From Primulina eburnea (taxonomy: Eukaryota; Streptophyta; Magnoliopsida; Lamiales; Gesneriaceae): a DNA stretch of 64,000 nucleotides. Positions 12,078 through 29,540 of this stretch are shown here, in pieces (position 1 is the first letter of the stretch; each line of letters begins with the position of its first letter). The notes beneath the pieces were generated by a model that saw only the letters and a list, made by a program, of their open reading frames with translations, ran no database searches and was not told the origin of the DNA. The stretch covers positions 124,001 through 188,000 of the forward strand of contig NW_027330951.1 of the NCBI RefSeq assembly GCF_022965805.1. Reading direction: 5' to 3'. The translations under genes were made by a program, and so were the position numbers.

Positions 12078-12149
12078 GCGGGGACCAGTGAGCTAGCTTG
12101 GGTCAGCAGTAGTAGGGACTCGAGGACCTCATGTTTAAGTTTATTCATC
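12078..12149 (+). repeat. Old LTR fragment H1, part 2
   Basis: Seventy-two bases between the E2 duplication (GCGGG, 12078-12082) and the copia duplication (TCATC, 12145-12149). GACTCGAGGACCTCATGTTT here matches the L-element LTR around 51415-51435. It links part 1 (to 1794) with part 3 (from 24054). Confidence 0.7.
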
Positions 12150-13138
12150 TGTTGGAAAGTAAATTCTGGAGTTTTGACAAAACATAAATCAATCGATTAA
12201 ATCAACTAATACGCGAAAGCAAATTTGGCAGCTGGATTTATCAACTGAAATCAGCTGACACAAACTGATCAGTTGAGAACTTATCAGTTAAAACATTCAG
12301 CCGAAAATATTAAAGCTTCTCAACTGAAGATACCTCGGGAAAGATCATTCAACAGACAGAAAGACATATCAGACAGCAACTGAATATGGAAAGTTGCACC
12401 TCGATCACTACAGCATAGAACAATGTGTTTCGGCTATTGCATTTAAGACGCCGTATCACAATCAATGAAGAGAACATCGCCCAAAGGAATAATGAAGAAG
12501 CAATCAACGGATACATAAATTCAAAGTTACCGTTGAAAAGACAAGTCTATAAATATGACTAAAGAGCAGTTGAAGAATGACGACGATCTATCAATCTCAA
12601 ACTTGCTATTACTCTGTCAAATCTCAACTCACTCTTATTAGACTTATTCGTAGCAATCAAGGCTACAAGTTGAGCAAACCAGCACTCTGTAATATTGATA
12701 ATTCAATAAGTGCTAAAGTTCAGTTACTTACAGAGATCATTGTATTATACTAAGAGTTCCAGTTTAGGCAATAGATAAGTCCTAACTGAAGTGGGTCTGT
12801 ACAAGTGCTGTACTCGATCAAAGTCTTTTAGTGAATATCCTATCTTTGAGATAGAAGGGGTGACGTAGGAGTTATTCAAATCTCCGAACATCCAGAAACA
12901 TATTGTGTTGTCTTTACTGCAGCCTTTCATTTTCAGTTAGATATTCTATCTTTCAATCAGTTTATTTTCCGCAACTGCTTATTCAGTTTAACTGATTGTT
13001 ATTGACCGACGAGATATTTAGTTCAGTTTGTAATAAAACTGAACTACCTTTTTCAAAGAACATTTAAATTCATAGAAGTGTTTATTCAACCCCCCCCCCC
13101 CCTTCTAAACACTCCTTAGTCAATAACCGATCCTATCA
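12150..13138 (+). repeat. 5' LTR of C
   Basis: 989 bp, TG...CA. A TATA box (TATAAATA, 12548-12555) places the transcript start near 12580. By eye it contains sixteen AACTG/CAGTT pentamers, six of them within 12236-12400 upstream of the TATA box. A long C run lies at about 13090-13102 (seven Cs in the 3' LTR). Confidence 0.93.
12548..12555 (+). promoter_or_regulatory. TATA box of the C LTR
   Basis: Perfect TATAAATA about 400 bases into the LTR; the same octamer is at 23468-23475 in the 3' LTR. This is the usual place for a copia U3 promoter. Confidence 0.75.
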
Positions 13139-13140
13139 AG

Positions 13141-13152
13141 TGGTATCAGAGC
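13141..13152 (+). promoter_or_regulatory. Primer-binding site of C
   Basis: TGGTATCAGAGC starts two bases after the 5' LTR end; complementary to initiator-Met tRNA. Confidence 0.92.
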
Positions 13153-13196
13153 AGGGCATATCCTATCAAAGACTATCTATACTCAATCTGATCGCT

Positions 13197-15146
13197 ATGT
13201 CCTCATTCAATAAGATTCCTATGTTCTCCAGAGAAGATTTCGATGATTGGAAAATAAGAATGCAGGCTCATCTAGCTGCACAAGACGATGACATGTGGTA
13301 CGTTATAACCGACGGGGCAAACACAGCTGTTGCTATTACTGAAGGGGCACCTCACCGAATTGAAAAGCCCAGAGATGAGTGGACTACTGAGGACTAGAGA
13401 AAGGCAAATCTAGACAATGTTGCAAAAGACATATTGTATAAGACACTGGACAAAGTAACGTTCAGTAAAATCAAAATGTGCAAAACCGCCAAAGAAATTT
13501 GGGAGAAGTTAATTCAACTTTGCGAAGGCAATGAACAAAACAAGGAAAACAAACTTTCAGTTGCTGTGCAGAAGTTCGACAACATCAGAATGAAGATGGG
13601 AGAAACAATGCAAGAATATGATGAAAGAACCAGCTGTATCATCAACGAACTGAATGCACTTGGAAAAGTATATACAAATAAAGAAGTAGCGTTGAAAGTA
13701 ATCAGAGGACTTCCCAAAGAATGGGATGTCAAAACTATGGCAATAAGGGAATCCAAAGATCTGAAAAAAGTTGAACTTCATGATTTATTTGCTGACCTGA
13801 AAGCATATGAGTTTGAACTTCAAACTCGAGAAGGAGAACCATCTACCCCAGCAGCAACTACTGCCTTAACTGCTGTTAGAAGTGAACCAACTGGTTCAGT
13901 TGAGAAAGCTGCTGATCAACTGAGCAATGATGCTATGTCACTATTCATTAAGAAATTTGGAAGATTCATGAGGAAAAATCAAGGCAATTTTCAGAAGAAT
14001 TATCAAAGAAACAACTCCAGAGAAGAGTCTAATGTATGTTACAACTGTGGCAAATCGGGTCACTTCATTGCTAACTGTCTCAAGCCTAAAAAGGACAATC
14101 AAGTCTCAACTGAAAGAAAGAAGAAAGTGTATGAGCATAAGAGGAGATCTAAGGACGACAAGAAGCCTTACAGAAAGAAACATGAAGTACTCTTAGCTGA
14201 AAATAGCAAAGCCAAATGGGCAAAAACTGACAGCGAAGAGTCAGAACCAGAAAGTTCTTGCAGTTCCAGTGAGGATGAGGAAGAAGTAACATGTCTAATG
14301 GCTGATAACATAGAAGATCAATCAAGCTATCAGCAGGTATTTGATTTTAGTTCAACTGATTTTACAAGAGAAGATTTCATCTCAACTCTTCATGACATGG
14401 TCAGTGAGTATCAAAAGCTTGCATTATCGTTTGAAAAAATCAGAGCAAAGCAAGATGATCCCAAAGACGATAAGACAAAAACTGATGAATCAGTTGATAT
14501 GTTGAGTCTGAGAAGGGAGATTGCTAAACTCAGAAATGAAAGAAGCAGGGATCAATTAATGATTGAAAAATTGTTGCTTGAAAATTCAAAGCACAATGAG
14601 CTTATTCAGGCTTGGAACAAATCATCTAAAGCTTTAACTAATATAAAGAATTCTCAGAAATCAGTTGATGATAAAACTGGTTTAGGATTCTGTAGTAAAG
14701 ATGATTTGTCTTCCCAAGATACTCAACCAAAACTGAATATGAACAAAGGGAAATATATTCACTTTGTAAAATCAGTTATGGTACAAGAACAAGCAGAGCC
14801 GAGTAAACTGATTGAACAGCCATCTCAGAATATGAATAAAGGAAAGAGATGTGGCATTGGGTATAATCCAAAGGGTAAGACTGACTCACGGAGTCAGCAA
14901 CTAAAAACTCTCAGCAGAAAATATTTAAATGGTTACTCAAACTACTATAACAGTAAGCCAGTTCAGAAAAGATATCGGTTGAACAATCAGTTGAAAAAGG
15001 ACAAAACACATGTTGTATCATCCACACACCATACACCAAGCACACACAGACAAGGAAGGACCATATGGAATACAGCAACAGGACGGTCAGTTAGACTGAT
15101 CCAAGTCTGGATTCCTAAAGGACTAATCAACTTTGGACCCAAATAG
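13197..15146 (+). pseudogene. gag: Gag of C, one internal stop (copia type)
   Basis: The ATG at 13197 (MSSFNKIPMFSREDFDDWKI) fits the usual copia gag start. An in-frame TAG at 13395-13397 replaces what should be Trp (EDW-RKANLDN); reading resumes in the same frame to 15146. The frame contains the UBN2-type gag region (KEIWEKLIQLCEG, VIRGLPKEWDVKTMAIRES), a zinc knuckle CYNCGKSGHFIANC (about residue 280 of the whole), then a long acidic, coiled-coil-prone tail (EESEPESSCSSSEDEEE and onward). Apart from the single TAG it is complete. The protein would assemble particles and package RNA. Confidence 0.88.
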
Positions 15147-15178
15147 AAAAGGGTACCAAAATCTTATTTTGTGTTTAA

Positions 15179-18100
15179 TTGCAGATAGTAGGTACAAGCA
15201 TTGGATCAATATGGTATTTGGACAGTGGATGTTCACGACATATGACAGGAGATTCAAATTTATTATCTCAATTGGTCAAATACATTGGTCCATACATCAG
15301 TTTTGGGGATAACTCCAAAGGTAAAACTGTGGGTAAGGGTAAGCTTATCCATGGTAACTTCACCATTAATGATGTTTTATTAGTCGAGAATCTTAAGTAT
15401 AATCTGATAAGCATTAGTCAGTTATGCGATAATGGATTCTCAGTTCAGTTTGACAAACACTCTTGTTCAGTCAAAAACTAAACTGAAGAGATTATTCTAA
15501 CCGGCAAAAGGTGTGGAAACACTTACAAAGTCAGCTGGAATGATCAACCTTATACACCAGTATGCTTTATTGCCTCTAAATCATCTCAAAACTGGTTGTG
15601 GCATAAAAGGTTAAATCATTTAAATTTTAAATCACTTGCCTATCTGAGTAAGCATGCACTTGTAACTGGTTTGCCCAAAATAAATTTTTCAAAAGAAAAA
15701 CTTTGCTCAGCATGTCAGTATGGAAAACAAGTACGATCCTCTTTCAAAAACAAAGGCTGTAAATCTTCATCCCGATGCTTAGAATTATTGCACATGGATC
15801 TCTTTGGTCCAATACCAGTCATGAGCTTAGGGGGAATGAAATACACCTTGGTGGTCGTAGATGACTTTTCAAGATTTACTTGGGTTATATTTCTCAAATC
15901 CAAAGACCATACTGCTGCACAACTGATTAAACTCTTCAAAAGACTTTTAAATGAAAAATTAGTTGGGATTGATCGAATCAGATCTGATCGAGGAACTGAA
16001 TTCATCAATCAAACACTTTCAAGCTTTTTAGAAAATACTGGAATCAAGCATGAGTTCTCAGCAGCAAGAACACCTCAGCAAAACGGTGTAGCTGAGAGAA
16101 GGAATAGGACTCTTAAAGAGGCTGCTAGAACAATGCTTGCTGATTCTGGTATTTCTCAAAGATTTTGGGCAGAAGCAGTAAACACTGCATGCTACACTCA
16201 GAAAAGATCTATGATTAATAAAAATCACATGAAAACACCATATGAGATCTGGCATGGAAGAAAAAGCATAATCACTTACTTCAAAATTTTTGGCTATAGA
16301 TGTTTTATTCATAACAATGGTAAAAATTATCTAAAAGAATTCGATGTCAAATCAGCAGAAGGAATATTCCTTGGATATTCATCAGTTAGCATAGCTTACA
16401 GAGTATTTAATAAGAAAACCTTAAATGCTGAAGAATCTGCACATGTTGATTTTGATGAAACGACACTAATTGATAAGCCAACTGATCAAGTTGAGCTAGC
16501 TGATCAATTTACAGATATCAGTCTGGAAGATGATGACTCAGACGAAAGTCGTAATAATCAAAATATCTTTCATAAACCTGAACCTGAGATATTGGATCAA
16601 CCAGCTGAATTGGAAGCAAATCTTGACAATCAGTTAGTGGAGCAAACTAATGAGAATCAATTAACAACTGAATCAGCTCCAACTGAAACTGAGAACATTC
16701 AGTTACCTAACGAAGAATTTGCTGACGGCGAAGCAACAAATGCTGAACTTAGATGGAAGAAATCACACCCTCCAGAACTGGTAATAGGTAACCCATCTGA
16801 TCCAGTAAGAACAAGAAATCAGATGCTCAATTTATTTATTCATTCAGCTTTTGTATCTCAAATAGAACCAACAAAAACTGACGAAGCTCTTGCTGATCCT
16901 AATTGGATTAATGCAATGCAAGAAGAGCTAAATCAGTTTGTTCATAACAATGTCTGGAACTTAGTTCCAAGACCAGCTTCTAAAACTGTTATAGGTACAA
17001 AATGGGTGTACAGAAACAAACTGAACGAAGATGGTTCAGTTGTGCGGAACAAAGCAAGGCTAGTGGCACAAGGATATAGACAAGAAGAAGGAATTGATTA
17101 TGATGAAACATATGCACCAGTTGCAAGACTGGAGGCAATCAGAATATTTCTTGCCTATGCATCCTTCAAGAACTTTAAAGTCTATCAAATGGATGTGAAA
17201 AGTGCATTCCTAAATGGCCAATTGCAGGAAGAAGTCTACGTTGAACATCCTCCAGGTTTTGTCAATCATAACTTCCCTGATCATGTTTATTATTTGAACA
17301 AAGCGTTATATGGTCTCAAACAAGCTCCAAGAGCTTGGTATGAAACCCTTTCAAAATTCCTAACTGATCATGATTTTTCCGTTGGATCAGTTGATAAGAC
17401 TTTGTTTAAATTTTCGAAAAATGATCATATCTTACTTGTTCAAATTTACGTTGATGACATTATTTTTGGGTCAACTAACCCCAAATTATGCAAGAAATTT
17501 TCCAAGTTGATGCAGGATAAGTTCGAGATGAGCATGATGGGTGAGTTGACATTCTTTCTTGGTTTACAAGTGAAGCAACTGGATTCAGGAACATTTATTA
17601 GTCAAACCAAATATACCAAGGAATTGCTGAAGAAATTTGGCATGGAATCTTGTTCAGCAGCAAGCACTCCAATGAGCTCATCAGTTAAATTAGACACTGA
17701 TCAAGGGGGAATATCAGTTGAGACGACACTATACAGAGGTTTAATAGGTTCTTTATTGTACCTAACTGCTAGTCGTCCTGATATTATGTTTGTTGTATGT
17801 ATATGTGCAAGATTTCAAGCTAATCCTAAGCAATCACATTTTTCTGCTGCCAAACGTATCTTGAAATATCTTAAAGGCACGGAAAATGTTGGATTATGGT
17901 ACTCTAAAGACTCATCTTTCAATTTAGTTGGCTATTCAGATGCAGATTATGCAGGATGCAAGCTTGATCGAAAAAGTACAAGTGGATCATGTCAGTTTCT
18001 TGGAGACAGACTGATCTCTTGGTTTAGTAAAAAGCAAACATCCATAGCAACTTCCACAACTGAAGCAGAATATCTTGCTGCTGGAAGGTGCTGTGCCCAA

Positions 18101-18391
18101 CTACTCTGGATTCAGCAACAATTGAAAGATTATGGTGTTGATGCAAAGGAATCACCAATATTCTGTGACAACACGAGTACAATTGCTATTACATACAATC
18201 CAGTTCTTCACTCCAGGACTAAGCATATAGATGTCAGACATCATTTCATCAGAGATCATGCACTGAAGAAGAACATCAGATTAGAATACGTCTCAACGGA
18301 ACAACAAGCAGCAGGCATCTTCACAAAACCATTACCAGAGGCTAAGTTTTCTTATTTCCGAAATATTCTTGGTTTAATTGATTTATCTTAA
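15179..18391 (+). pseudogene. pol: Pol of C: protease, integrase, RT, RNase H (copia order), one internal stop
   Basis: Protease is at the start (WYLDSGCSRHMTG). A TAA at 15479-15481 interrupts the frame, which resumes unchanged; the rest, 931 residues from 15596, is fully open. In that part the integrase has H3, H7, C37, C40 and catalytic D68, D131, E167 with 35 residues between the last two. RT follows ([15 protein letters not shown] near residue 525; YVDDIIFGS near 618), then RNase H (YSDADYAGC near 779; [14 protein letters not shown] near 875). The frame differs from gag, so expression needs a frameshift or another device; no ATG fits near the start. Confidence 0.9.
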
Positions 18392-18488
18392 GATATTATT
18401 AGTGATATAACTTCACTAACAAAATTAAGTGCAGAAAATAAGAACACAACAAATTAAAAATAATATTTCACTAAGAATACCAACGTTC

Positions 18489-18893
18489 TCAATGTACAGA
18501 AGAAATCATAGATCCAACTGTATCTAGCCATGCCCTAACCCAATCATTTAACTCATAAATTCGAACTCCAGCAAATGCCCTTGACTTTGAGATCTTATCA
18601 ACAACATGCCACTCCTTCCATAGCATTGCTTCTAAAAGACACTTGTCTTCAACCAAATCATTAACATGCCTAACCTCAAAACGAGCAAGGTATTTCAGCG
18701 CTCTTGCCTCCTGAGCACGAGTAGGAATGACACCGCTGTCACTCACCATCTTCAACTCATAAATCTTTTCCCAGGTTGTCAATACCTTCTGAAAAACATA
18801 TCTTTCCATTTTTCTTTTAATCTCAGTTAAGCGAGGGGCTGACTGATCAATCACATGAACGTGAGTGCTACTGCATGCATCAGAATCAGACAT
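18489..18893 (-). CDS. Antisense ORF 1 of C, 134 residues, unknown protein
   Basis: I do not recognise this protein. It lies about 100 bases after pol on the opposite strand and is open from ATG to stop. It is predicted mostly helical and rich in charged residues, with no signal peptide, membrane segment or zinc motif. It aligns without gaps to antisense ORF 2 through the middle: VF followed seven residues later by WE, then EL, then SG, a LE.ML.KE-like block (LEAMLWKE here) and a C-terminal W...W region. A TATA box stands 52-59 bases before the ATG. Being intact inside an element whose gag and pol have stops, and having a partner, argue that it is a real gene; its role is open. Confidence 0.6.
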   Translation of the reverse strand: MSDSDACSSTHVHVIDQSAPRLTEIKRKMERYVFQKVLTTWEKIYELKMVSDSGVIPTRAQEARALKYLARFEVRHVNDLVEDKCLLEAMLWKEWHVVDKISKSRAFAGVRIYELNDWVRAWLDTVGSMISSVH

Positions 18894-18944
18894 GTTGAAA
18901 TAGTTTTGGACTGATGAGGAATCATATTTTTATCACTATCATCT

Positions 18945-18952
18945 CATTTATA
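18945..18952 (-). promoter_or_regulatory. TATA box of antisense ORF 1
   Basis: On the minus strand it reads TATAAATG, 52-59 bases upstream of the ATG at 18893, giving an expected 5' leader of roughly 25 bases. Confidence 0.55.
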
Positions 18953-19216
18953 AGAAAAAGGTGTTGAAGAAGTTGAAGAATCACAAGTCAATTAAAGCGT
19001 CTCTCACATTTACCGAGGACATTTAAGATATCAGTTGATCATTGTCAACTGATAACAGTTTGAATTTTATTAGTTGTTTCATTATCAACTTATGAAAATT
19101 AGTTTTTCAGTTCATTTGTTTACTTATCAAAACTGATGACTGTTAACATTTCATTAGATCATATAACAAATAATTGTGTGAAGAAATAAAACAAAACGAT
19201 GCAATAAATATTTTAT

Positions 19217-19615
19217 TCATCCATAAATATTTGAAAGGATTACATTATCATAGGTTTCCTTCACACTAGCTATCCACATATTCATCCAAACAGCTAGTGC
19301 TGAGGACGAAGTTTTGCAGAAACTGTGTGAAGAAGTGATGCTGTTAAGAGTCTCCAACTCCTTGCGCAGCATCAGCTCATAGAGATGGCCTTCCTTGAAG
19401 GCATCCACCTCTGCAGAAATCTTTAAGTGCTCTCGCACTTCTCTCAGTTGGGCCATCCGCCTGAACGAAGTAACCCTTCCTGAGTTATATAGGAGCTCGA
19501 GCTCCAGTAACTCTTCCCAGTAGGGAAGACTAGCATAGAAAACTTTGTCTTCTATAGCAGCTTTCTGTGCTTCCAGCGAACAAGAATCAACGTTTGAACT
19601 ACTTGCTCCTGTCAT
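19217..19615 (-). CDS. Antisense ORF 2 of C, 132 residues, paralogue of ORF 1
   Basis: I do not recognise this protein either. It starts MTGASSSNVDSCSLEAQ and shows the same helical pattern as ORF 1, with matching spacing: VFYASLPYW against VFQKVLTTW, EL.L...SG, a LYELMLRKE block and a Trp-rich C-terminus. Identity is low, so the duplication is old. The ORF is open, has a perfect TATA box 50-57 bases before its ATG, and is separated by about 320 bases from ORF 1, which reads in the same direction. Possible roles include a silencing suppressor, a particle accessory protein or captured host sequence; nothing here decides between them. Confidence 0.6.
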   Translation of the reverse strand: MTGASSSNVDSCSLEAQKAAIEDKVFYASLPYWEELLELELLYNSGRVTSFRRMAQLREVREHLKISAEVDAFKEGHLYELMLRKELETLNSITSSHSFCKTSSSALAVWMNMWIASVKETYDNVILSNIYG

Positions 19616-19664
19616 TTATCTTTGAGTCTTTTCTGCTGATGCTTGTGACTAACTTCTCTATTCT

Positions 19665-19672
19665 TATTTATA
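19665..19672 (-). promoter_or_regulatory. TATA box of antisense ORF 2
   Basis: On the minus strand it reads CCTATAAATAAG, a perfect plant TATA box, 50-57 bases before the ATG at 19615. The spacing nearly equals that of antisense ORF 1. Confidence 0.65.
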
Positions 19673-20209
19673 GGCCAGGTGAAAGAAGATGAAAGGACAC
19701 TCCTTTAAAAGACGATTACACTACCAAGCCTTGGGATTATCTTAATCAGGATTATTTTATTTAATGCATCTATTTAGGGGGAATGAAGGTTTAAGAAGTT
19801 AACTGAGAAGACAGTCGTTAGTAAATTCTCAGCTGAATGGTATCAGTTTTTCCTAACTGATCGTTCAGTTGATTATTCAACTAATCTTCTCATCAAAGTT
19901 AAATAATTAAACCTATTATATTCCACATCAAATTACGTGACTGTCTGCTAATTCATGATGAATTTCAGTTTATAACGTGTACACATTTTTAACCGCTCAT
20001 TATTTTACACACACAATTATAGTACACGTACACATATTTTTACTCAAAATTTTACTGGACTGACACGTGTCCGAAAATTCAAAAAGTCAAAAAACATTAG
20101 TAATATTCCCCGCTTCATTTCAGTTTTCACGAGCACTTTATCTTTCTAAAGAACTCTCATTTCTCTTACTTTTTATCTTGAGAGATATCAGAATTTCTAA
20201 CACTTTCAA
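19673..20209. promoter_or_regulatory. Possible divergent promoter region between antisense ORF 2 and the extra sense ORF
   Basis: About 540 AT-rich non-coding bases separate the divergently read frames. The ten-base palindrome GACACGTGTC (20062-20071) contains a G-box, about 140 bases before the sense ATG. Several CAGTT/AACTG pentamers lie at 19800-19880. No clear TATA box for the sense ORF was seen, so sense expression from here is inference. Confidence 0.4.
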
Positions 20210-22896
20210 ATGGCAAACCAGATTCCAGCACATCTTTTGAACGCCATGGCTATCAACTTCAATTCAATTATGTCCATTACAGACGCTGATGTAAAGAAAG
20301 TATTTCAGCAACTGGAATCAGCAGGTTTAAAACCCTTTTTGGGTCTCTATGCTCAGGAAATTTATCCCAAAGAGCTTCACGACTTCTATTCAACAGGATT
20401 CATCAATTCTGATGAAAACATTGTTGCTACCATCAATAACAAAATAATGATCATCTCTGAAGATTATTTTGGAAATTTGTTTTCACTACCTTATGATGGG
20501 CTAGCACAATCAAAGCATCGGAAATCGAAGAAATGCAAACTTTACTCTCTGCAGATGGACGGAAAATCAAAGTTTCCGATCCCAAGAAGGAGTTAAAGCA
20601 CGAGGTGCAACTGCTGGCAGACATTGTAGCCAAAGGGCTTTTGGCGAAGGCTGGGTCCTTTGCTGCTCTGACTCTAGAAAAGTTTCAACTCATCACAGTA
20701 ATCATGACTGGACGACGAATCAACTGGAAGCATCTTCTATTCACTATTCTGAAGAACATGTTCTCTTCTGCTAAGCAATCCAAAGGTTTTGCTGTCCAGC
20801 TCAGTTATCTGCTGAAAAACCAAGGGTTAATTGCTGATGATTCTGACAGATTATCAAGATTCAAGGTGTTCAATGCTAAAAACATTCTACCATCAAAAAC
20901 CAAATTAGATCTTTCTCCTGAGAAATTCATCAAGATCAAGAAGGAAATTGGGATGGAGCAGGCTGCTCCCAAATCAGTCAAAGTTGCCAAGAACTTGACA
21001 AAGAAGAAAGAGTCAAAACGCAAACTGATTCTCAGTGATTCTGATAGTCAGAAGACTCTACCTCTTCAAATTGTCAAGAAACCAAGGACACTGAAGACCA
21101 AATCAGTTGATCATGTTAAATCCACATCCACTGATCAGGAAATGGATACAGGAATTCAGCAGCCAATTCAGAATGTTATCACAAAGGAAGTTTCAGTTGC
21201 ATCCTTAACTGAGGATCAGTTACCACTATCCTTATTTCTGCCAAACATCACTGCATCCAGCAAATCATCAAAACTTCCAGGGGTCAAAGCTCCACTGATT
21301 AGTATCTCATCTTACTCTTCTTTGCCGTTTGCCAGACCCACCGGAATAATACTCAGAGAAAATATTGACGCAACTACATCAGGATTAACTATCCCACACA
21401 TTTTGAGTGACTCTAAGGGCAAGAGTAAACTTCAAGAAGAACCCAGACCCTCAAATGCAATTCAGACTCACATTGACCTCATCTGGCAAGAATTCAATAC
21501 ATTTGCAGCAGAGAAGCATCAAGTTTTTGAGGAATGGGTCAATTTCAGAGTTAATGTTTTTGCTAAGGAACTGCGCAACAAATCCAAGTTGAAAAGATTT
21601 GTTGATCTAGAACGACTAGTGTTAAAAACAGTTAAGGCCTCCTCTATTCAGCAAGCTTTGCAAAGGAAGAAATATTTCTTCAACTTATATCGGGAACAAA
21701 AGTTGCAGCAAATAGTTGCTGAACTCAGGCAAAACTTTAATCCCCTTAGTCCAACTGCATTCAACGACAAAGCAGTCTATGCTCAATTGGAAACAGATCT
21801 GATCACACTGCAAGCAGAAATTAAAGACTGGGAAATGAGTCAAGAACTGATCATCCCAGAGATGTCTCAAAAAATTGCTGAAGAAGCTCCAGCTGAACAT
21901 TCAGTTGGAAACCTAGTCACGGATCTTGCTGGTTCTTCATCTCAACCAGAAGGTATTTCATCAATTGCTCTATCTTCATTCGAGACAACACCTACAACTA
22001 ATACTCCTAAGATGTATTCTGAGGCTGAGCTGAAATTGGGAAACATTGATGAAGTCGTTCAGTCAGTCGTTAAGGAAATATCTACAGTTGATCACTCTGC
22101 TGATCAAATCAATCCGGAGGTCACTATTGCTTTGAAAGAACCTGGACAACCTGATCTATCTACTGATCCGGTTCACTCCACTAATGAGACAGACACTTTG
22201 ATCAATCATCCTTTAGAGGCACCAACTTCAGTTCTTTTGTCATCTGCTGAACAGAACCCTTCTTCACCACCTCAGGATCTAGATGAAATCACTGCTGATG
22301 ATATTCCAGTTCAAGGAGAAATAGCTGAAACTGATATTTCAGTTCAAAATGTTATTGAATCAGTCTCAACTGATCAAACTTTGGTTATTTCTGAGCACAT
22401 CTCTAAAGAACCAGGAACATCTTATCAGTCTCCTCCTTCATCTTCTACAGATGTTGAACTTATCTTGGAAGAAGTTCAGCACTTACAGAATAAGATGGAG
22501 CAAATGATCTCTACCATCTCCAAAATTCAGAACACACAATTATCTCACACTCTAAAGCTGGACCATTCACATGCGTCCAACTTAGAGAAACTGAATAAAC
22601 TTCAGAAAAATATGGACTCTCTTGACCAAATTGTAAAGGATCTGAAGCAGGGACTAATCAACTCTTTCTCTACAAATCAGGATGTCAACAGTCAACGAAT
22701 TGGGCGACTGGAAACCTCCGTTTCAAAGCAGATAGAATTACTGCAGATTTCCTTCACTACTATGGCCACAAGTATCTCATCAGATGTAAAACTTCTATCC
22801 ATCGATGTTAAAAAGCTCTCAGACAAAATGGAGGTATTTGACAAAAAGGGGAAAGCAGCTGAAACAACTGATATCATTTGTCCAGTTATTTTGTGA
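20210..22896 (+). pseudogene. Extra sense ORF of C (aORF), long coiled-coil protein, one frameshift
   Basis: It starts MANQIPAHLLNAMAINFNSI at 20210. The first 128 codons leave frame near 20500-20535; the next frame is open for 787 codons to 22896, and the sense of the sequence continues across the shift. The N-terminal part (to about 20930) is globular and reminds me of domains annotated as putative plant transposon protein in retroelements (memory, unverified). The centre is Ser/Thr/Pro/Glu-rich and low in order. The C-terminal 130 residues (about 22450-22850) form heptad-like helices (EEVQHLQNKMEQM, NLEKLNKLQKNMDSL). I see no signal peptide or membrane helix, so it is unlike a typical envelope protein although it sits where SIRE elements carry an env-like ORF. 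Confidence 0.7.
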
Positions 22897-23057
22897 TTCA
22901 GTTAAGTTGAAGAATTAATCAGACTATTATTATCAACTGATATCATTTTCTCAGACGTTATATTATCTACAAGGAACCCAGCTATTCTATGATTCAGTTG
23001 CGTAATATATTATCAACAAATAGCTGAATTAAATCTCTTGGTTTTGTCAAACACCAT

Positions 23058-23068
23058 AAAGGGGGAAA
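23058..23068 (+). promoter_or_regulatory. Polypurine tract of C
   Basis: AAAGGGGGAAA ends one base before the 3' LTR at 23070; plus-strand primer site. Confidence 0.9.
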
Positions 23069-23069
23069 T

Positions 23070-24053
23070 TGTTGGAAACTAAATTCTGGAGTTTTGACAA
23101 AACATAAATCAATCGATTAAATCAACTAATACGCGAAAGCAAATTTGGCAGCTGGACTTATCAACTGAAATCAGCTGACACAAACTGATCAGTTGAGAAC
23201 TTATCAGTTAAAACATTCAACCGAAAATACTAAAGCTTCTCAACTGAAGATACCTCGGGAAAGATCATTCAACAGATAGAAAGACATATCAGACAGCAAC
23301 TGAATATGGAAAGTCGCACCTCGATCACTACAGCATAGAACAATGTGTTTCGGCTATTGCATTTAAGACGCCGTATCACAATCAATGAAGAGAACATCGC
23401 CCAAAGGAATAATGAAGAAGCAATCAACGGATACATAAATTAAAAGTTACTGTTGAAAAGACAAGTCTATAAATATGACTAAAGAGCAGTTGAAGAATGA
23501 CGACAATCTATCAATCTCAAACTTGCTATTACTCTGTCAAAATCTCAACTCACTCTTATTAGACTTATTCGTAGCAATCAAGGCTACAAGTTGAGCAAAC
23601 CAGCACTCTGTAATATTGATAATTCAATAAGTGCTAAAGTTCAGTTACTTACAGAGATCATTGTATTATACTAAGAGTTTCAGTTTAGGCAATAGTTAAG
23701 TCCTAACTGAAGTGGGTCTGTACAAGTGTTGTACTCGATCAAAGTCTTTTAGTGAATATCCTATCCTTGAGATAGAAGGGGTGACGTAGGAGTTATTCAA
23801 ATCTCCGAACATCCAGAAACATATTGTGTTGTCTTTACTGCAGCCTTTCATTTTCAGTTAGATATTCTATCTTTCAATCAGTTTATTTTCCGCAACTGCT
23901 TATTCAGTTTAACTGATTGTTATTGACCGACGGGATATTTAGTTCAGTTTGTAATAAAACTGAACTACCTTTTTCAAAGAACATTTAAATTCATAGAAGT
24001 GTTTATTCAACCCCCCCTTCTAAACACTCCTTAGTCAATAACCGATCCTATCA
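23070..24053 (+). repeat. 3' LTR of C
   Basis: 984 bp, almost identical to the 5' LTR. Differences seen by eye are about fifteen substitutions, a one-base indel and a shorter C tract. TATA box at 23468-23475. It is followed by the duplication TCATC. Confidence 0.93.
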
Positions 24054-24265
24054 TCATCTTTTCATGTTCAAACTCATTTTTATCATGTTGAATTATTTTT
24101 AAGTTTTTGTTTTGAAACACAATATTTACTTCGCTGTTACTTTTAAGTTAAATCTATTTATCAGTTTATTTTATAAATGATGCATGTTATTTATTTAAAG
24201 AGAAATTTTTTTAATAATTCCACAGCATTACGAATACGAAATACGGGCCTCTACATGTCCATTCA
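24054..24265 (+). repeat. Old LTR fragment H1, part 3 (probable LTR end)
   Basis: AT-rich, with TTATTTATAAA and a T-rich stretch in the same order as the end of the L-element LTRs (51575-51649). It probably ends near CTCTACA at about 24265, but no primer site follows, so the LTR is not attached to its own internal region. Confidence 0.5.
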
Positions 24266-25422: not shown

Positions 25423-27359
25423 TGTGGGGACCCGGGCTCTAATTTTTTTCTTTGGGATTAACACGGATCATTAATATAAAAAGTGGATCAAATTTTTGCT
25501 TTTACATTAACTCAAATGAAAGTTAACATAAGAAGATTCTATGTTATTCAACAACATAATATACAAACATAAGATACAAATATGTCTGGTTCCAAACCAT
25601 ATTCGACAACTAGTAATTAAATACAGTACATGCCAAAAGTACAACTACTAGTTCTTCTGCTATGCCCGAGATCTCCACGCTATGTCCATCTCTCATCCTC
25701 TGCGTGACCCAGATCCTGCCCCACCTGTTGTTATGCACACATACAGACATAACAACAGCCGGAAACTCCGGTGAGAACAAATCCCAGTATAAACATGTAT
25801 ACATGCATATAATCAATTAAACATGAAACATGCTATCATGAATGACATCATATGCACATGCAATGCAATGCGAATCAAACCATGTCTGGACTCGACTCGA
25901 CTAGAACTCTAGGGATCCCGGTGTGAATAAGACGTCAATGGCTGTCACCTACCCTCCCACTCGGGGTGACTGTACGTCTTATTCCTAGACTTCGGTCTGA
26001 GCTGTATCAACGACTGCAATAAGAGTAATGGCTACTCCTAAGCTGAGATACACCGAACATCTAGATAGTTGACAATGACTGTCAACGACGCTCCTATCTT
26101 AAATGCAATGAATATCAATCTGTAAACAAAGCATGGCAAGATTTGTATACAAGTTCTATGAACAAATCTATAAACAATCATAATCAAATCTAGATATAAA
26201 CAATAAAACAAGTATGTGATTTTGGTTGGGAAACTCAAATGTGATCTCATTTGAGTCGTAATTCCCCAAACAAAACATGTACTATACCTTTCGTCGCACA
26301 GTTGCTGTCACGGTCGCCAAACTGAATCTGAAATGGAAATGTTGATATACAATCTATCAATCTCTAATCTAAATCAACACATATCCAATTCACTACGTGA
26401 TCTCGATACAATTTGACGGCATAACGACGTAATTCTCGATACCGGTCAATCCAATTCTTAACAGATATCCACACTATCTCATTCTCAATCATTCTCATTC
26501 ATAATCCAATACAATATCCATCCAAAACACAATAATTCTGCCCCAATAATTCATAAACCATACTGAAATTCATAGGAAATGCATATGATATCATTTCTTT
26601 GATCCGTTTACAAATATATCATGCTCAATACGTCAAGAACACAATATAACTATCATATTCTAATTTCCCAAACATCTGAATTTCGAAATCTGTTGAAATT
26701 ACATAAAACTTACATCACTTTGTAGCTAGTAACGAGAGGAGCTCAAAACCGCAGTCGGATTTGAATTTGGATGGCTCAATCTTCTAAAATCACAATTACA
26801 AGTGAAAGGAAACTTGAAAGCCTTTCTTCCTCAGAAATCCCCGGTTCTTGCTAATGAAATGAGAAGAATTCGAGGCAAATCTGTATATATACCTTGCATA
26901 TTTTCGTACACATGGCAATCCATTTGGACTACACGTCTCGCGCATATGCGCGGACACTACTCGCGCATGTGCGCGAGACCTACTGTCTCGGCAGCTTGGC
27001 AGAAATCACGCTCGCGCATATGCGCCACTTATCTCGCGCATATGCGCCCAAGCTTCTGGACCGACCGCGAATATGCGCGACTAAACTCGCGCATGTGCGC
27101 CATAGCTGCTGGAGGTATCGCGCATATGCGCGCATTGTCTCGCGCATGTGCGCCGAGGCTACTGGAATTCACGCGCATGTGCGCGCATATCTTCGCGCAT
27201 GTGCGCTGGAGCTTCGACCCTTCTCATTTCTTTTGATTGTCTCCTCATCTTTAATGTACATTTTCCTTTTCTTTTCTAGTCCACTATAATACATCTACAA
27301 TCACCTTAATTATCAACAATATCAGTCTGATTATGATAACTAAATCTTCGAGCCTTACA
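25423..27359 (-). repeat. 3' LTR of D
   Basis: On the plus strand it reads TGTGGGGACC...GAGCCTTACA. In element direction the palindrome array (26940-27206) comes first, then a TATATATA stretch at 26884-26891, then transcribed AT-rich sequence. Frames inside are repeat artefacts. Confidence 0.93.
26940..27206. repeat. GC-rich palindrome array, GCGCATRTGCGC type (D 3' LTR)
   Basis: Ten copies of GCGCATATGCGC or GCGCATGTGCGC (one reads GCGAATATGCGC) lie 153-420 bases from the LTR start, separated by 10-35 unrelated bases. The same ten units, one base better, are at 33759-34025 in the 5' LTR. The TATATATA stretch lies about 50 bases beyond the array in element direction. Confidence 0.9.
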
Positions 27360-27455: not shown

Positions 27456-29540
27456 TCATGTAAATAACTCGGGATATCTTTGTCTCATGATTGTCTCTGT
27501 CTCCCAAGTCGCTTCCTCAACGCCATGACGACTCCACTGAACTTTCACAAGTGGAATAATCTTTGTTCTGAGCTTCTTTTCTTTCCGATCAAGGATCTGT
27601 ATCGGTTGTTCCACGTAGCTCAAGGTCTGATCAAGTTCAGCTTCGTCAGGTTGAATGACATGAGAAACATCTGGCATATATCTTCGTAACATTGATACAT
27701 GAAACACGTCATGTATTCCGGATAGAGAAGGAGGAAGTGCAAGTCGATAAGCTCGATCGCCAATCTTCTCAAGAATCTCGTAAGGACCAATGTATCGAGG
27801 AGATAGTTTCCCGCGTTTGCCAAATCTTACAACGCCTCTGAAAGGGGAAATATTTAAGAATACTCTATCTCCTGCCTCAAATACTAACGGTCTACGTCTG
27901 ATATTGGCGTACTTTGCTTGTCGATCTTGTGCTATCTTCATTCTCTTCTGAATGACTTTCACCTTCTCCGTCATGTCACGAATCATATCTGGCCCAAGTT
28001 CTGGTACCTCTGCAACGTCATCCCAGTATAGCGGAGATCTGCACTTCTTACCATATAAAGCTTCAAACGGTGCCATCTCAATGCTCGTCTGGTAGCTATT
28101 GTTGTAAGAGAATTCGCAAAGAGGTAGAGAATCTTGCCAACCAATGCCAAAATCTAGCACGACGGCTCTCAACATATCCTCTAGAGTCTGGATAGTCCGT
28201 TCTGACTGTCCGTCTGTCTGAGGATGATAAGCAGTACTCAGGTGTAATGTCGTACCTAGAGCCTGCTGTAAGCTGTGCCAAAAGTGAGAAGTGAATCGTG
28301 GATCACGATCTGATACGATAGACTTCGGCACTCCATGCAACCTGACTACCTCTCGAATATAAATCTCCGCCATCTGATCCTGTCTATACATCATTCTGTA
28401 TGGAATGAAACAAGCAGATTTGGTCAATCTGTCAATAATAACCCAAATCGCATCGCAGCCTCTGGATGATCGTGGTAACTTCGTCACAAAATCCATGGAA
28501 ATGTGATCCCATTTCCATTCTGAAATGGCTAAACTTAGAAGTAATCCACCAGGCTTCTTCCTCTCAGCTTTCACCTGTTGGCAGTTCAAACACTTAGACA
28601 CAAATTCGGCAATGTCTGACTTCATTTGCTTCCACCAGAACTGTGTCTTCAAGTCATTATACATCTTCCTGCCACCAGGATGAATGCTGAACCGACTACA
28701 ATGTGCCTCTGTCAGAATCTGCTGTCTTAAATCTGTAACATCTGGCACAACTAGACGGTTATTCACATACAACACATGATCTCGTACCTGATATTCTGAT
28801 ACATGCCCTGATCTGACCATTTGGATCGATTTCTGCACATTCTGATCGGTTCTTTGTGCTTCCTTGATCCTCATAATCAAATCGGGCTCAACTTGGATCG
28901 TAAAAAGTCGTAGTGGCTTACTATATGTATCAAATTCTAATCCAGATGTACAGTAATTTTCAACTAACTTGTTAACACCTATCGTCGATAAGGACAAAGA
29001 ACATACCTTACGACTCAAGGCATCTGCTGCTGCATTTGACTTCCCTGGATAATATTTGATTTCACAGTCAAAGTCTTTCAAAAGATCTAGCCATCTACGC
29101 TGCCTAATATTCAGCTCTGATTGAGAAAATAGGTACTTCAGGCTTTTGTGATCGGAGAAGATCTCAAATTTCTCGCCATAGAGATAATGACGCCAAATCT
29201 TTAATGCAAATACGATAGCCGCCAATTCTAGATCATGAATGGGGTATCGGATCTCGTGTGGCTTCAATTGTCTCGAGGCGTATGCGACCACATGACCTCG
29301 CTGCATAAGAACACATACCAAACCTCTGTGAGAGGCATCACAATATACAATGAAATCACTCGTACCTGAAGGTATCGTCAGTACTGGGGCACTGGTCAGT
29401 CTTTTCTTCAACTCTAGAAAGCTAGACTCGCACTCCTCTGACCAAACAAATGGTGCATTCTTTTGCGTCAATTGAGTTATTGGCTTTGCAATACTGGAGA
29501 AATCTTTGATAAATCTTCTGTAGTATCCGGCTAAGCCCAT
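27456..29540 (-). pseudogene. pol: Pol of D, second part: end of RT, RNase H, integrase, chromodomain
   Basis: 694 open codons after a TAA. RNase H has D68 (YCDASH), E105 and D130. Integrase has the zinc-binding H280, H287, C317, C320 and catalytic D350, D411, E447, with exactly 35 residues between D411 and E447. The GPYEIL motif (GPY/F module) is near residue 585. The chromodomain spans about 643-690 ([16 protein letters not shown]), the mark of chromoviruses and probably the reader that targets new copies to heterochromatin. All key residues are present; only the preceding TAA separates it from the RT core. Confidence 0.92.

Follow-up and report, generated by a model that had tools for sequence, protein, structure and literature searches.

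SIRE elements are abundant in plant genomes. One of them, in Primulina eburnea, raises the question of whether two open frames on its minus strand, between pol and an extra sense ORF, are genes of the element or stand open by chance. The first-pass annotation had read them as a duplicated transcription unit, each frame with its own TATA box, and had named open frames in other copies and a dN/dS below 1 among the signs to look for. We examined the two frames, here called A and B, in the 64,000-nucleotide stretch in which they were noticed (contig NW_027330951.1, positions 124,001 to 188,000; the window) and in further copies found by searching the 812 Mb genome.

The host is a SIRE-type Ty1/copia element

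A and B lie within an LTR retrotransposon of 11.9 kb (12150-24053) of the SIRE type of Ty1/copia. Its features, in window coordinates, are:

12145..12149, no strand: target-site duplication TCATC, left copy, read from the flank
12150..13138, plus strand: 5' LTR of 989 bases, TG...CA, carrying a poly-C run (13090-13102); found as a direct repeat, ends checked
13139..13152, plus strand: spacer AGTGG, then primer binding site TATCAGAGC of the tRNA-Met type, checked against the Sirevirus junction in PMC2829016 (excerpt)
13197..15146, plus strand: gag, starting from a first ATG at 13197 and interrupted in frame by a stop at 13395; the open part, 13434 to 15146, carries Retrotran_gag_2 and a zinc knuckle
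15596..18391, plus strand: the part of pol that begins with the integrase and goes on to reverse transcriptase and RNase H, an open frame of 931 codons
18489..18893, minus strand: antisense gene A, 134 codons in the window copy
18945..18952, minus strand: TATA box of A, TATAAATG
19212..19217, minus strand: AATAAA starting from the last base of the B stop codon, a possible poly(A) signal
19217..19615, minus strand: antisense gene B, 132 codons
19665..19672, minus strand: TATA box of B, TATAAATA
20210..22896, plus strand: extra sense ORF downstream of pol, at the 'env-like' position of SIRE elements (eORF-3'F), divided here between the overlapping frames 20210-20596 and 20533-22896
23060..23067, plus strand: polypurine octamer AGGGGGAA, 10 bases before the 3' LTR, then AT/TG (motif in PMC2829016, excerpt)
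23070..24053, plus strand: 3' LTR, 984 bases
24054..24058, no strand: target-site duplication TCATC, right copy

The pol frame contains the Pfam domains rve (residues 63-160) and RVT_2 (residues 451-694); integrase thus lies ahead of reverse transcriptase, which places the element in Ty1/copia. The first-pass annotation had described both gag and pol as carrying stops. This holds for gag, which is interrupted at codon 67 counted from the first ATG, and for the stretch from gag to 15596, but not for the part from integrase to RNase H, which is open throughout. The K2P distance between the LTRs is 0.0144, and at substitution rates of 1.3e-8 to 7e-9 the element inserted 0.55-1.03 million years ago.

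The element matches Sirevirus motifs given in the excerpt of PMC2829016 in its primer binding site junction, its polypurine tract (PPT) and attachment site, its poly-C integrase signal and its sense ORF after pol. The 5' LTR ends in CA and is followed by AGTGG and TATCAGAGC; the published junction has the spacer ATTGG or its G variant, the substituted base being left unspecified in that passage. At the other end AGGGGGAA is followed by AT and TG (23060-23071), as in Sirevirus PPT and attachment sites, and the excerpt gives the terminal A of the octamer for ToRTL1 and Tnd-1 as well. Each LTR carries a C run close to its end, at 13090-13102 (5' LTR) and 24011-24017 (3' LTR). Copies of AGGGGGAA occur at 19776 and 23060 in the linker and at 15829 and 17704 in pol, and AGGGGGAG, looked for alongside them, is absent. 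The window linker therefore holds only two PPT copies, against a published Sirevirus mean of about four (PMC2829016, excerpt).

The sense ORF after pol, in its two overlapping frames, occupies the place of the SIRE eORF-3'F, which the excerpted survey of PMC6317226 found in 74% of SIRE elements. It matched no Pfam family above the cut-off.

Beyond the element the window holds a tandem repeat at 27012-27213, with a 53-base period and three registered copies that are 76-77% alike. Beside it lies a Ty3-looking pol ORF on the minus strand (27456-29540).

Two related frames on the minus strand

Both frames (A, 134 codons; B, 132) and both TATA boxes, TATAAATG at -59 to -52 of the A ATG and TATAAATA at -57 to -50 of the B ATG, were found where the first-pass annotation had placed them. 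They run antisense between pol and the 3' LTR, the position of an aORF-3R. We simulated 2000 first-order Markov sequences of the linker (18392-20209) and counted minus-strand ATG ORFs of at least 130 codons. Five sequences had one or more such ORF and none had two, the number present in the real linker. Together with the selection seen in both genes (below), this upholds the earlier judgement that chance antisense frames are unlikely.

The proposed relatedness of A and B was likewise borne out. BLASTP aligned the two proteins without gaps over 101 residues at 26% identity (E 3e-6). Their Smith-Waterman score of 102 was reached by none of 3000 shuffles (mean 28.5, maximum 60), and hhalign of the family profiles, built from 7 and 5 sequences, aligned 108 gap-free columns (probability 96.95, E 1.3e-10). 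Judged from these alignments, A and B are true paralogues. At the DNA level only chance-level matches remain (E of at least 4), indicating that the duplication is old.

Copies across the genome

Protein searches with A and B gave 4656 and 4599 first-look candidates, of which 150 were scored for each gene. No internal stop was present in 122 of the 150 A copies and 135 of the 150 B copies, fractions that are optimistic because the scored sets are the best-scoring copies and not a random sample. In the 28 interrupted A copies among these best-scoring rows we counted 31 internal stops (18 TGA, 13 TAG and no TAA), a pattern that would fit decay through deamination of methylated cytosines. The 15 interrupted B copies of the best-scoring 150 had 5 TGA, 6 TAG and 4 TAA.

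We fetched 93 loci, representing 89 distinct places once the same-place repeats L009, L010, L030 and L033 were dropped. These comprise 45 loci of subfamily SF1, including the window's own copy (L001), 28 of SF2, 8 of SF3, one locus without B (L053, kept outside the subfamily counts) and seven deeply diverged copies. L001-L008 were chosen by DNA similarity, L009-L078 by A protein matches, and L079-L086 by B matches, picked for their absence from the A list. L087-L093 came from matches to P0002, a relative of A; they are 7 of 150 rows, picked across the identity range. Loci selected through one gene make the open-frame counts of that gene too favourable, and the counts below are to be read accordingly.

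Among copies found by DNA, the 40 closest share 95-97% identity with the window. SF2 DNA is about 94% alike to the window in A and about 74% in B, and all 8 SF3 loci align with A and B over at least 397 bases at 87-90%. The ATG of A is in place in 45/45 SF1 and 27/28 SF2 loci, and that of B in 41/45 and 25/28. Frames of at least 125 codons are open for A in 38 of 45 SF1 and 25 of 28 SF2 loci, and for B in 32 of 45 and 22 of 28. Most SF1 and SF2 loci fetched thus keep both frames open, one of the signs set out at the start. Retention in most copies, with conservation like that of other element genes, is as described for an aORF-3R, albeit among best-scoring copies and not random ones.

The window copy of A is shorter than usual, with 134 codons against 140 in 36/45 SF1 and 24/28 SF2 loci. 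In a comparison with L022, L058 and L079, most copies extend to 140 codons and finish in a Trp-rich end, and the final residues are missing from the window copy.

Purifying selection on both frames

We estimated dN/dS by NG86 with Jukes-Cantor correction, which is rough where dS exceeds 1, and limited circularity by judging each gene on loci chosen through the other. For B, the comparison of SF1 with SF2, whose loci were almost all chosen by A or by DNA, gave dN 0.237, dS 1.17 and a ratio of 0.201 over 1260 pairs. For A, the comparison of SF1 with SF3, in which B had picked the SF3 loci and A most of the SF1 loci, gave dN 0.071, dS 0.338 and a ratio of 0.211 over 360 pairs. The window copy, which was not itself selected, gave A ratios of 0.17 against L079 and 0.21 against L083. 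A likewise gave 0.18 between SF1 and SF2, and B gave 0.063 between SF1 and SF3, where the loci were chosen by B. Ratios between subfamilies are therefore well below 1 throughout, the second sign named in the first-pass annotation (A 0.18 and 0.21, B 0.20 and 0.06 for SF1 against SF2 and SF3). For pol, 416 pairs between SF1 and SF2 (32 and 13 loci, after exclusion of those with gappy matches) gave 0.127.

Within subfamilies the B ratio is 0.28 in SF1, 0.55 in SF2 and 0.21 in SF3, compared with 0.06-0.20 between them, as expected when inserted copies decay freely. For A the values are 0.15, 0.29 and 0.16 within and 0.17-0.21 between subfamilies, and a rise like that of B is not clear.

Frame controls were run for A on SF1 against SF3 and for B on SF1 against SF2. 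Wrong-frame ratios ranged from 0.8 to 2.6, except in the opposite-strand frame that faces the third positions (0.186 for A, 0.379 for B). Opposite-strand frames contain 7.1-8.7 stop-bearing codons per pair, and the plus-strand frame with facing third positions is excluded as a coding frame by its stops alone (7.1 per pair opposite A, 8.0 opposite B). Codon-level purifying selection is thus strongly supported in both A and B.

The two genes disagree about the nearest neighbour of SF1. By A it is SF2 (dS 0.17, against 0.34 for SF3); by B it is SF3 (0.52, against 1.17 for SF2). When SF2 (L040-L058) and SF3 (L079-L086) are compared with window positions 18391-20600, A shares its history with pol, and B shares a different one with the start of the sense ORF. 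In the SF2 loci that have an alignable piece, the N-terminal part of the sense ORF matches that of the window at only 74-77%. This disagreement indicates that the linker has been reshuffled, most simply, on these distances, by recombination with a breakpoint between A and B.

Promoter boxes and flanks

TATAAAT lies at -75 to -38 of the A ATG in 88 of the 89 loci; the remaining one, L087, is mis-anchored and has the box at -41 of its true ATG. Before B the box is found in 84 of the 85 loci with an alignable 5' end, L093 being the miss and three loci being unalignable. Shuffled upstream stretches contain TATAAAT in 2.5% (A) and 1.3% (B) of cases, a contrast inflated by the kinship of the copies. 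The box survives several indels between itself and the ATG (-41 to -65) in a region that is otherwise diverged.

The wider proposal of a duplicated transcription unit fared less evenly. In its favour, both genes keep the box, and the 12-mer CTATAAATAAGA found before A in 5 of the 7 deep copies is exactly that of B in SF1, the other two deep A copies having TTATAAATAAGA. Of seven A/B pairs compared upstream, four had a similarity reached by 0/500 shuffles, and the others were reached by 8, 25 and 261. With TATAAAT masked, the similarity of L079 was reached by 19/500 shuffles, that of L058 by 41/500 and those of the other five by 311-475, clearly no better than chance. Among three downstream pairs L079 alone stood out (4/500). 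A promoter and 3' flank common to A and B beyond the TATA box is thus unproven after masking.

AATAAA overlaps the B stop in at least 22/45 SF1 and at least 22/28 SF2 loci and also in L088. We set it aside as evidence for a poly(A) signal, since it occurs at B in 0/8 SF3 loci and within 160 bases of the A stop in only 1 of the 79 scored SF1-SF3 loci. At the A stop itself it is found in 2 of 3 deep loci.

Conserved boxes would also be expected if the antisense RNAs were what matters, pairing with element RNA and tuning silencing or copy number while the frames are passengers. Both units lie inside the span of the full-length sense transcript, and regulatory antisense transcription is discussed for plant and animal retroelements (PMC7264820, excerpt). 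Such a model does not predict that third positions vary most, nor a dN/dS of 0.06-0.21 between subfamilies, nor that the window's A-B spacer would be matched in only 1/8 SF3 loci and unmatched in the other seven. Antisense RNA as the sole function is largely refuted, and we hold it to be very unlikely.

Deeply diverged copies and the age of the pair

All seven deep copies have A and B in the same relative order and strand. Three of them (L088, L091, where B has 126 codons, and L092) keep both frames open and both boxes, at amino-acid identities to the window of 58-72% for A and 59-68% for B. The other four (L087, L089, L090 and L093) have an open A and a broken B that is frameshifted, cut or ends in another frame. 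B may be more dispensable than A, or the deep copies with a broken B may simply be dead.

Bootstrap 95% limits for the window against deep copies were 0.14-0.42 for A with L088 (ratio 0.25), 0.14-0.44 for B with L088 (0.26) and 0-0.31 for B with L092 (0.18). Measured against the window, A had an upper limit below 1 in 7/7 deep copies, as did B in the 4 of 7 whose frame could be used. Among the deep copies themselves, B of L088 gave 0.51 against L091 and 0.66 against L093, with limits reaching 1.7 and 1.2.

These copies bear on the simplest alternative, that A and B are chance open frames carried by a recent burst of near-identical copies. The 95-97% identity of the 40 closest copies is what such a burst would leave. 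Yet frames are open at amino-acid identities to the window of 57-72% (A) and 58-68% (B), no simulated linker of 2000 had two frames, and selection is significant in both genes. Chance is refuted by the dN/dS values with their bootstrap limits, and its probability is practically nil.

In a protein tree of 13 A and 10 B sequences the two genes are split by a branch of 1.9 with support 100, and each half holds a group of deep copies, some nodes having low support (52-62). This split means that the duplication is older than the split of the sampled subfamilies. On the tree's evidence, the pair formed before these subfamilies diverged and was then inherited together.

Predicted proteins

Neither A nor B matched a Pfam family, a PDB sequence or a clear fold, and Transposase_28 (PF04195) went unmatched at E values up to 1 in A, in B and in all 10 members of one further alignment. 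AlphaFold2 models, built from input alignments of three and four sequences, are all helical and confident, with pLDDT 80.6 for A and 82.7 for B and pTM 0.70 and 0.74. The predicted pI is 7.8 for A and 5.2 for B. Proteins of this size can enter the nucleus passively.

A search for homologous proteins returned only three relatives, and no named host gene was among them. P0001, a Primulina eburnea protein of 194 aa, starts with about 46 N-terminal residues of B, after which it runs into foreign sequence that looks like a Ty3 integrase. It is probably a chimeric gene prediction across nested elements.

We asked whether the pair could be a nested element, or a captured pair of host genes, sitting in the linker with a life apart from the retrotransposon. 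Promoter boxes of their own and the absence of relatives among described protein families would suit such guests. Against this, the order of pol end, A and B is as in the window in 8/8 SF3 loci, pol sequence is present in 57 of the 58 loci checked (in some as short pieces), and the constant order and strand in the seven deep copies and the lack of a named host gene among the three relatives point the same way. On the loci covered here, we regard this origin as highly improbable.

Discussion

A and B are very probably paralogous protein-coding accessory genes of a SIRE-lineage copia element, with their own TATA promoters and trans-acting products. Computation shows that they are homologous, that both are under purifying selection, that their start codons (ATG) and TATA boxes are conserved, and that some deep copies still carry the pair. 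From these properties we infer that the genes are transcribed, translated and functional, and that the two proteins act jointly. An old duplication would have produced A and B in antisense orientation between pol and the env-like ORF. Without relying on the LTR, the TATA promoter of each gene would drive its minus-strand transcription and yield a short mRNA whose leader measures some 10-35 bases. The encoded proteins, helical and about 15 kDa in size, would act in trans and aid the propagation of the element.

As to what they do, we tentatively favour a nuclear regulator of the element's own expression, by anti-silencing or by antisense-gene regulation such as has been suggested for maize Grande gene23. 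No domain or known fold speaks for any one role, and involvement in particle assembly or in RNA export is about equally probable. A more specific scheme has the two paralogues pair into a two-subunit counter-silencing or regulatory complex encoded wholly in antisense, whose LTR-independent promoters escape LTR silencing and whose genes are missed by surveys of frames of at least 250 codons; we consider it unlikely.

The proteins could instead restrain the element, as p22 does in Ty1, interfering with its own particles for copy-number control. Ty1 does encode a small restriction protein that acts in trans (PMC4599808, excerpt), and independent promoters would let dosage rise with copy number. 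However, neither A nor B showed sequence similarity to gag in the window, and selection for a self-restricting protein inside an element is expected to be weak. Self-restriction appears quite unlikely.

The nearest known counterparts are the antisense ORFs of Ty3/gypsy elements (aORF-3R or eORF-3'R) such as maize Grande gene23, rice RIRE2 and Silene Retand, which are also antisense, between pol and the 3' LTR, and kept in most copies. Grande gene23 is reported to have its own promoter (PMC7264820, excerpt). In contrast to these ORFs, A and B belong to a SIRE-type Ty1/copia element, form two paralogues with a TATA box each, and encode short proteins of 130-144 codons; unlike the TRP28 proteins of Retand they showed no Transposase_28 domain. 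The excerpt of PMC7264820 mentions antisense promoters for AtRE1 and Mdoryco1-1, and none of its antisense extra ORFs is said there to be copia. The likeness is functional, to an antisense accessory gene of the Grande and Retand kind; the novelty lies in the lineage, in the pairing and in the codon-level constraint shown for both genes. Our literature search, mostly outside subscription journals, did not turn up antisense genes paired in this way in any copia element.

A looser analogy is offered by HBZ and APH-2 of HTLV, antisense retroelement genes with a promoter of their own whose products act as nuclear regulators (PMC11963269 and PMC7264820, excerpts). The HTLV antisense promoter sits in the 3' LTR (PMC7264820, excerpt), unlike the boxes of A and B.

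The survey in the excerpt of PMC6317226 counted extra ORFs of at least 250 codons only, so that genes of 130-144 codons would go unrecorded, and it calls the function of SIRE extra genes speculative. An antisense pair under constraint comparable with that of pol, with conserved core promoters, would be a tractable case for the function of such extra genes. Our findings suggest that length cut-offs in surveys can hide genes of this kind, and a pair kept by selection suggests that the element depends on two helper proteins.
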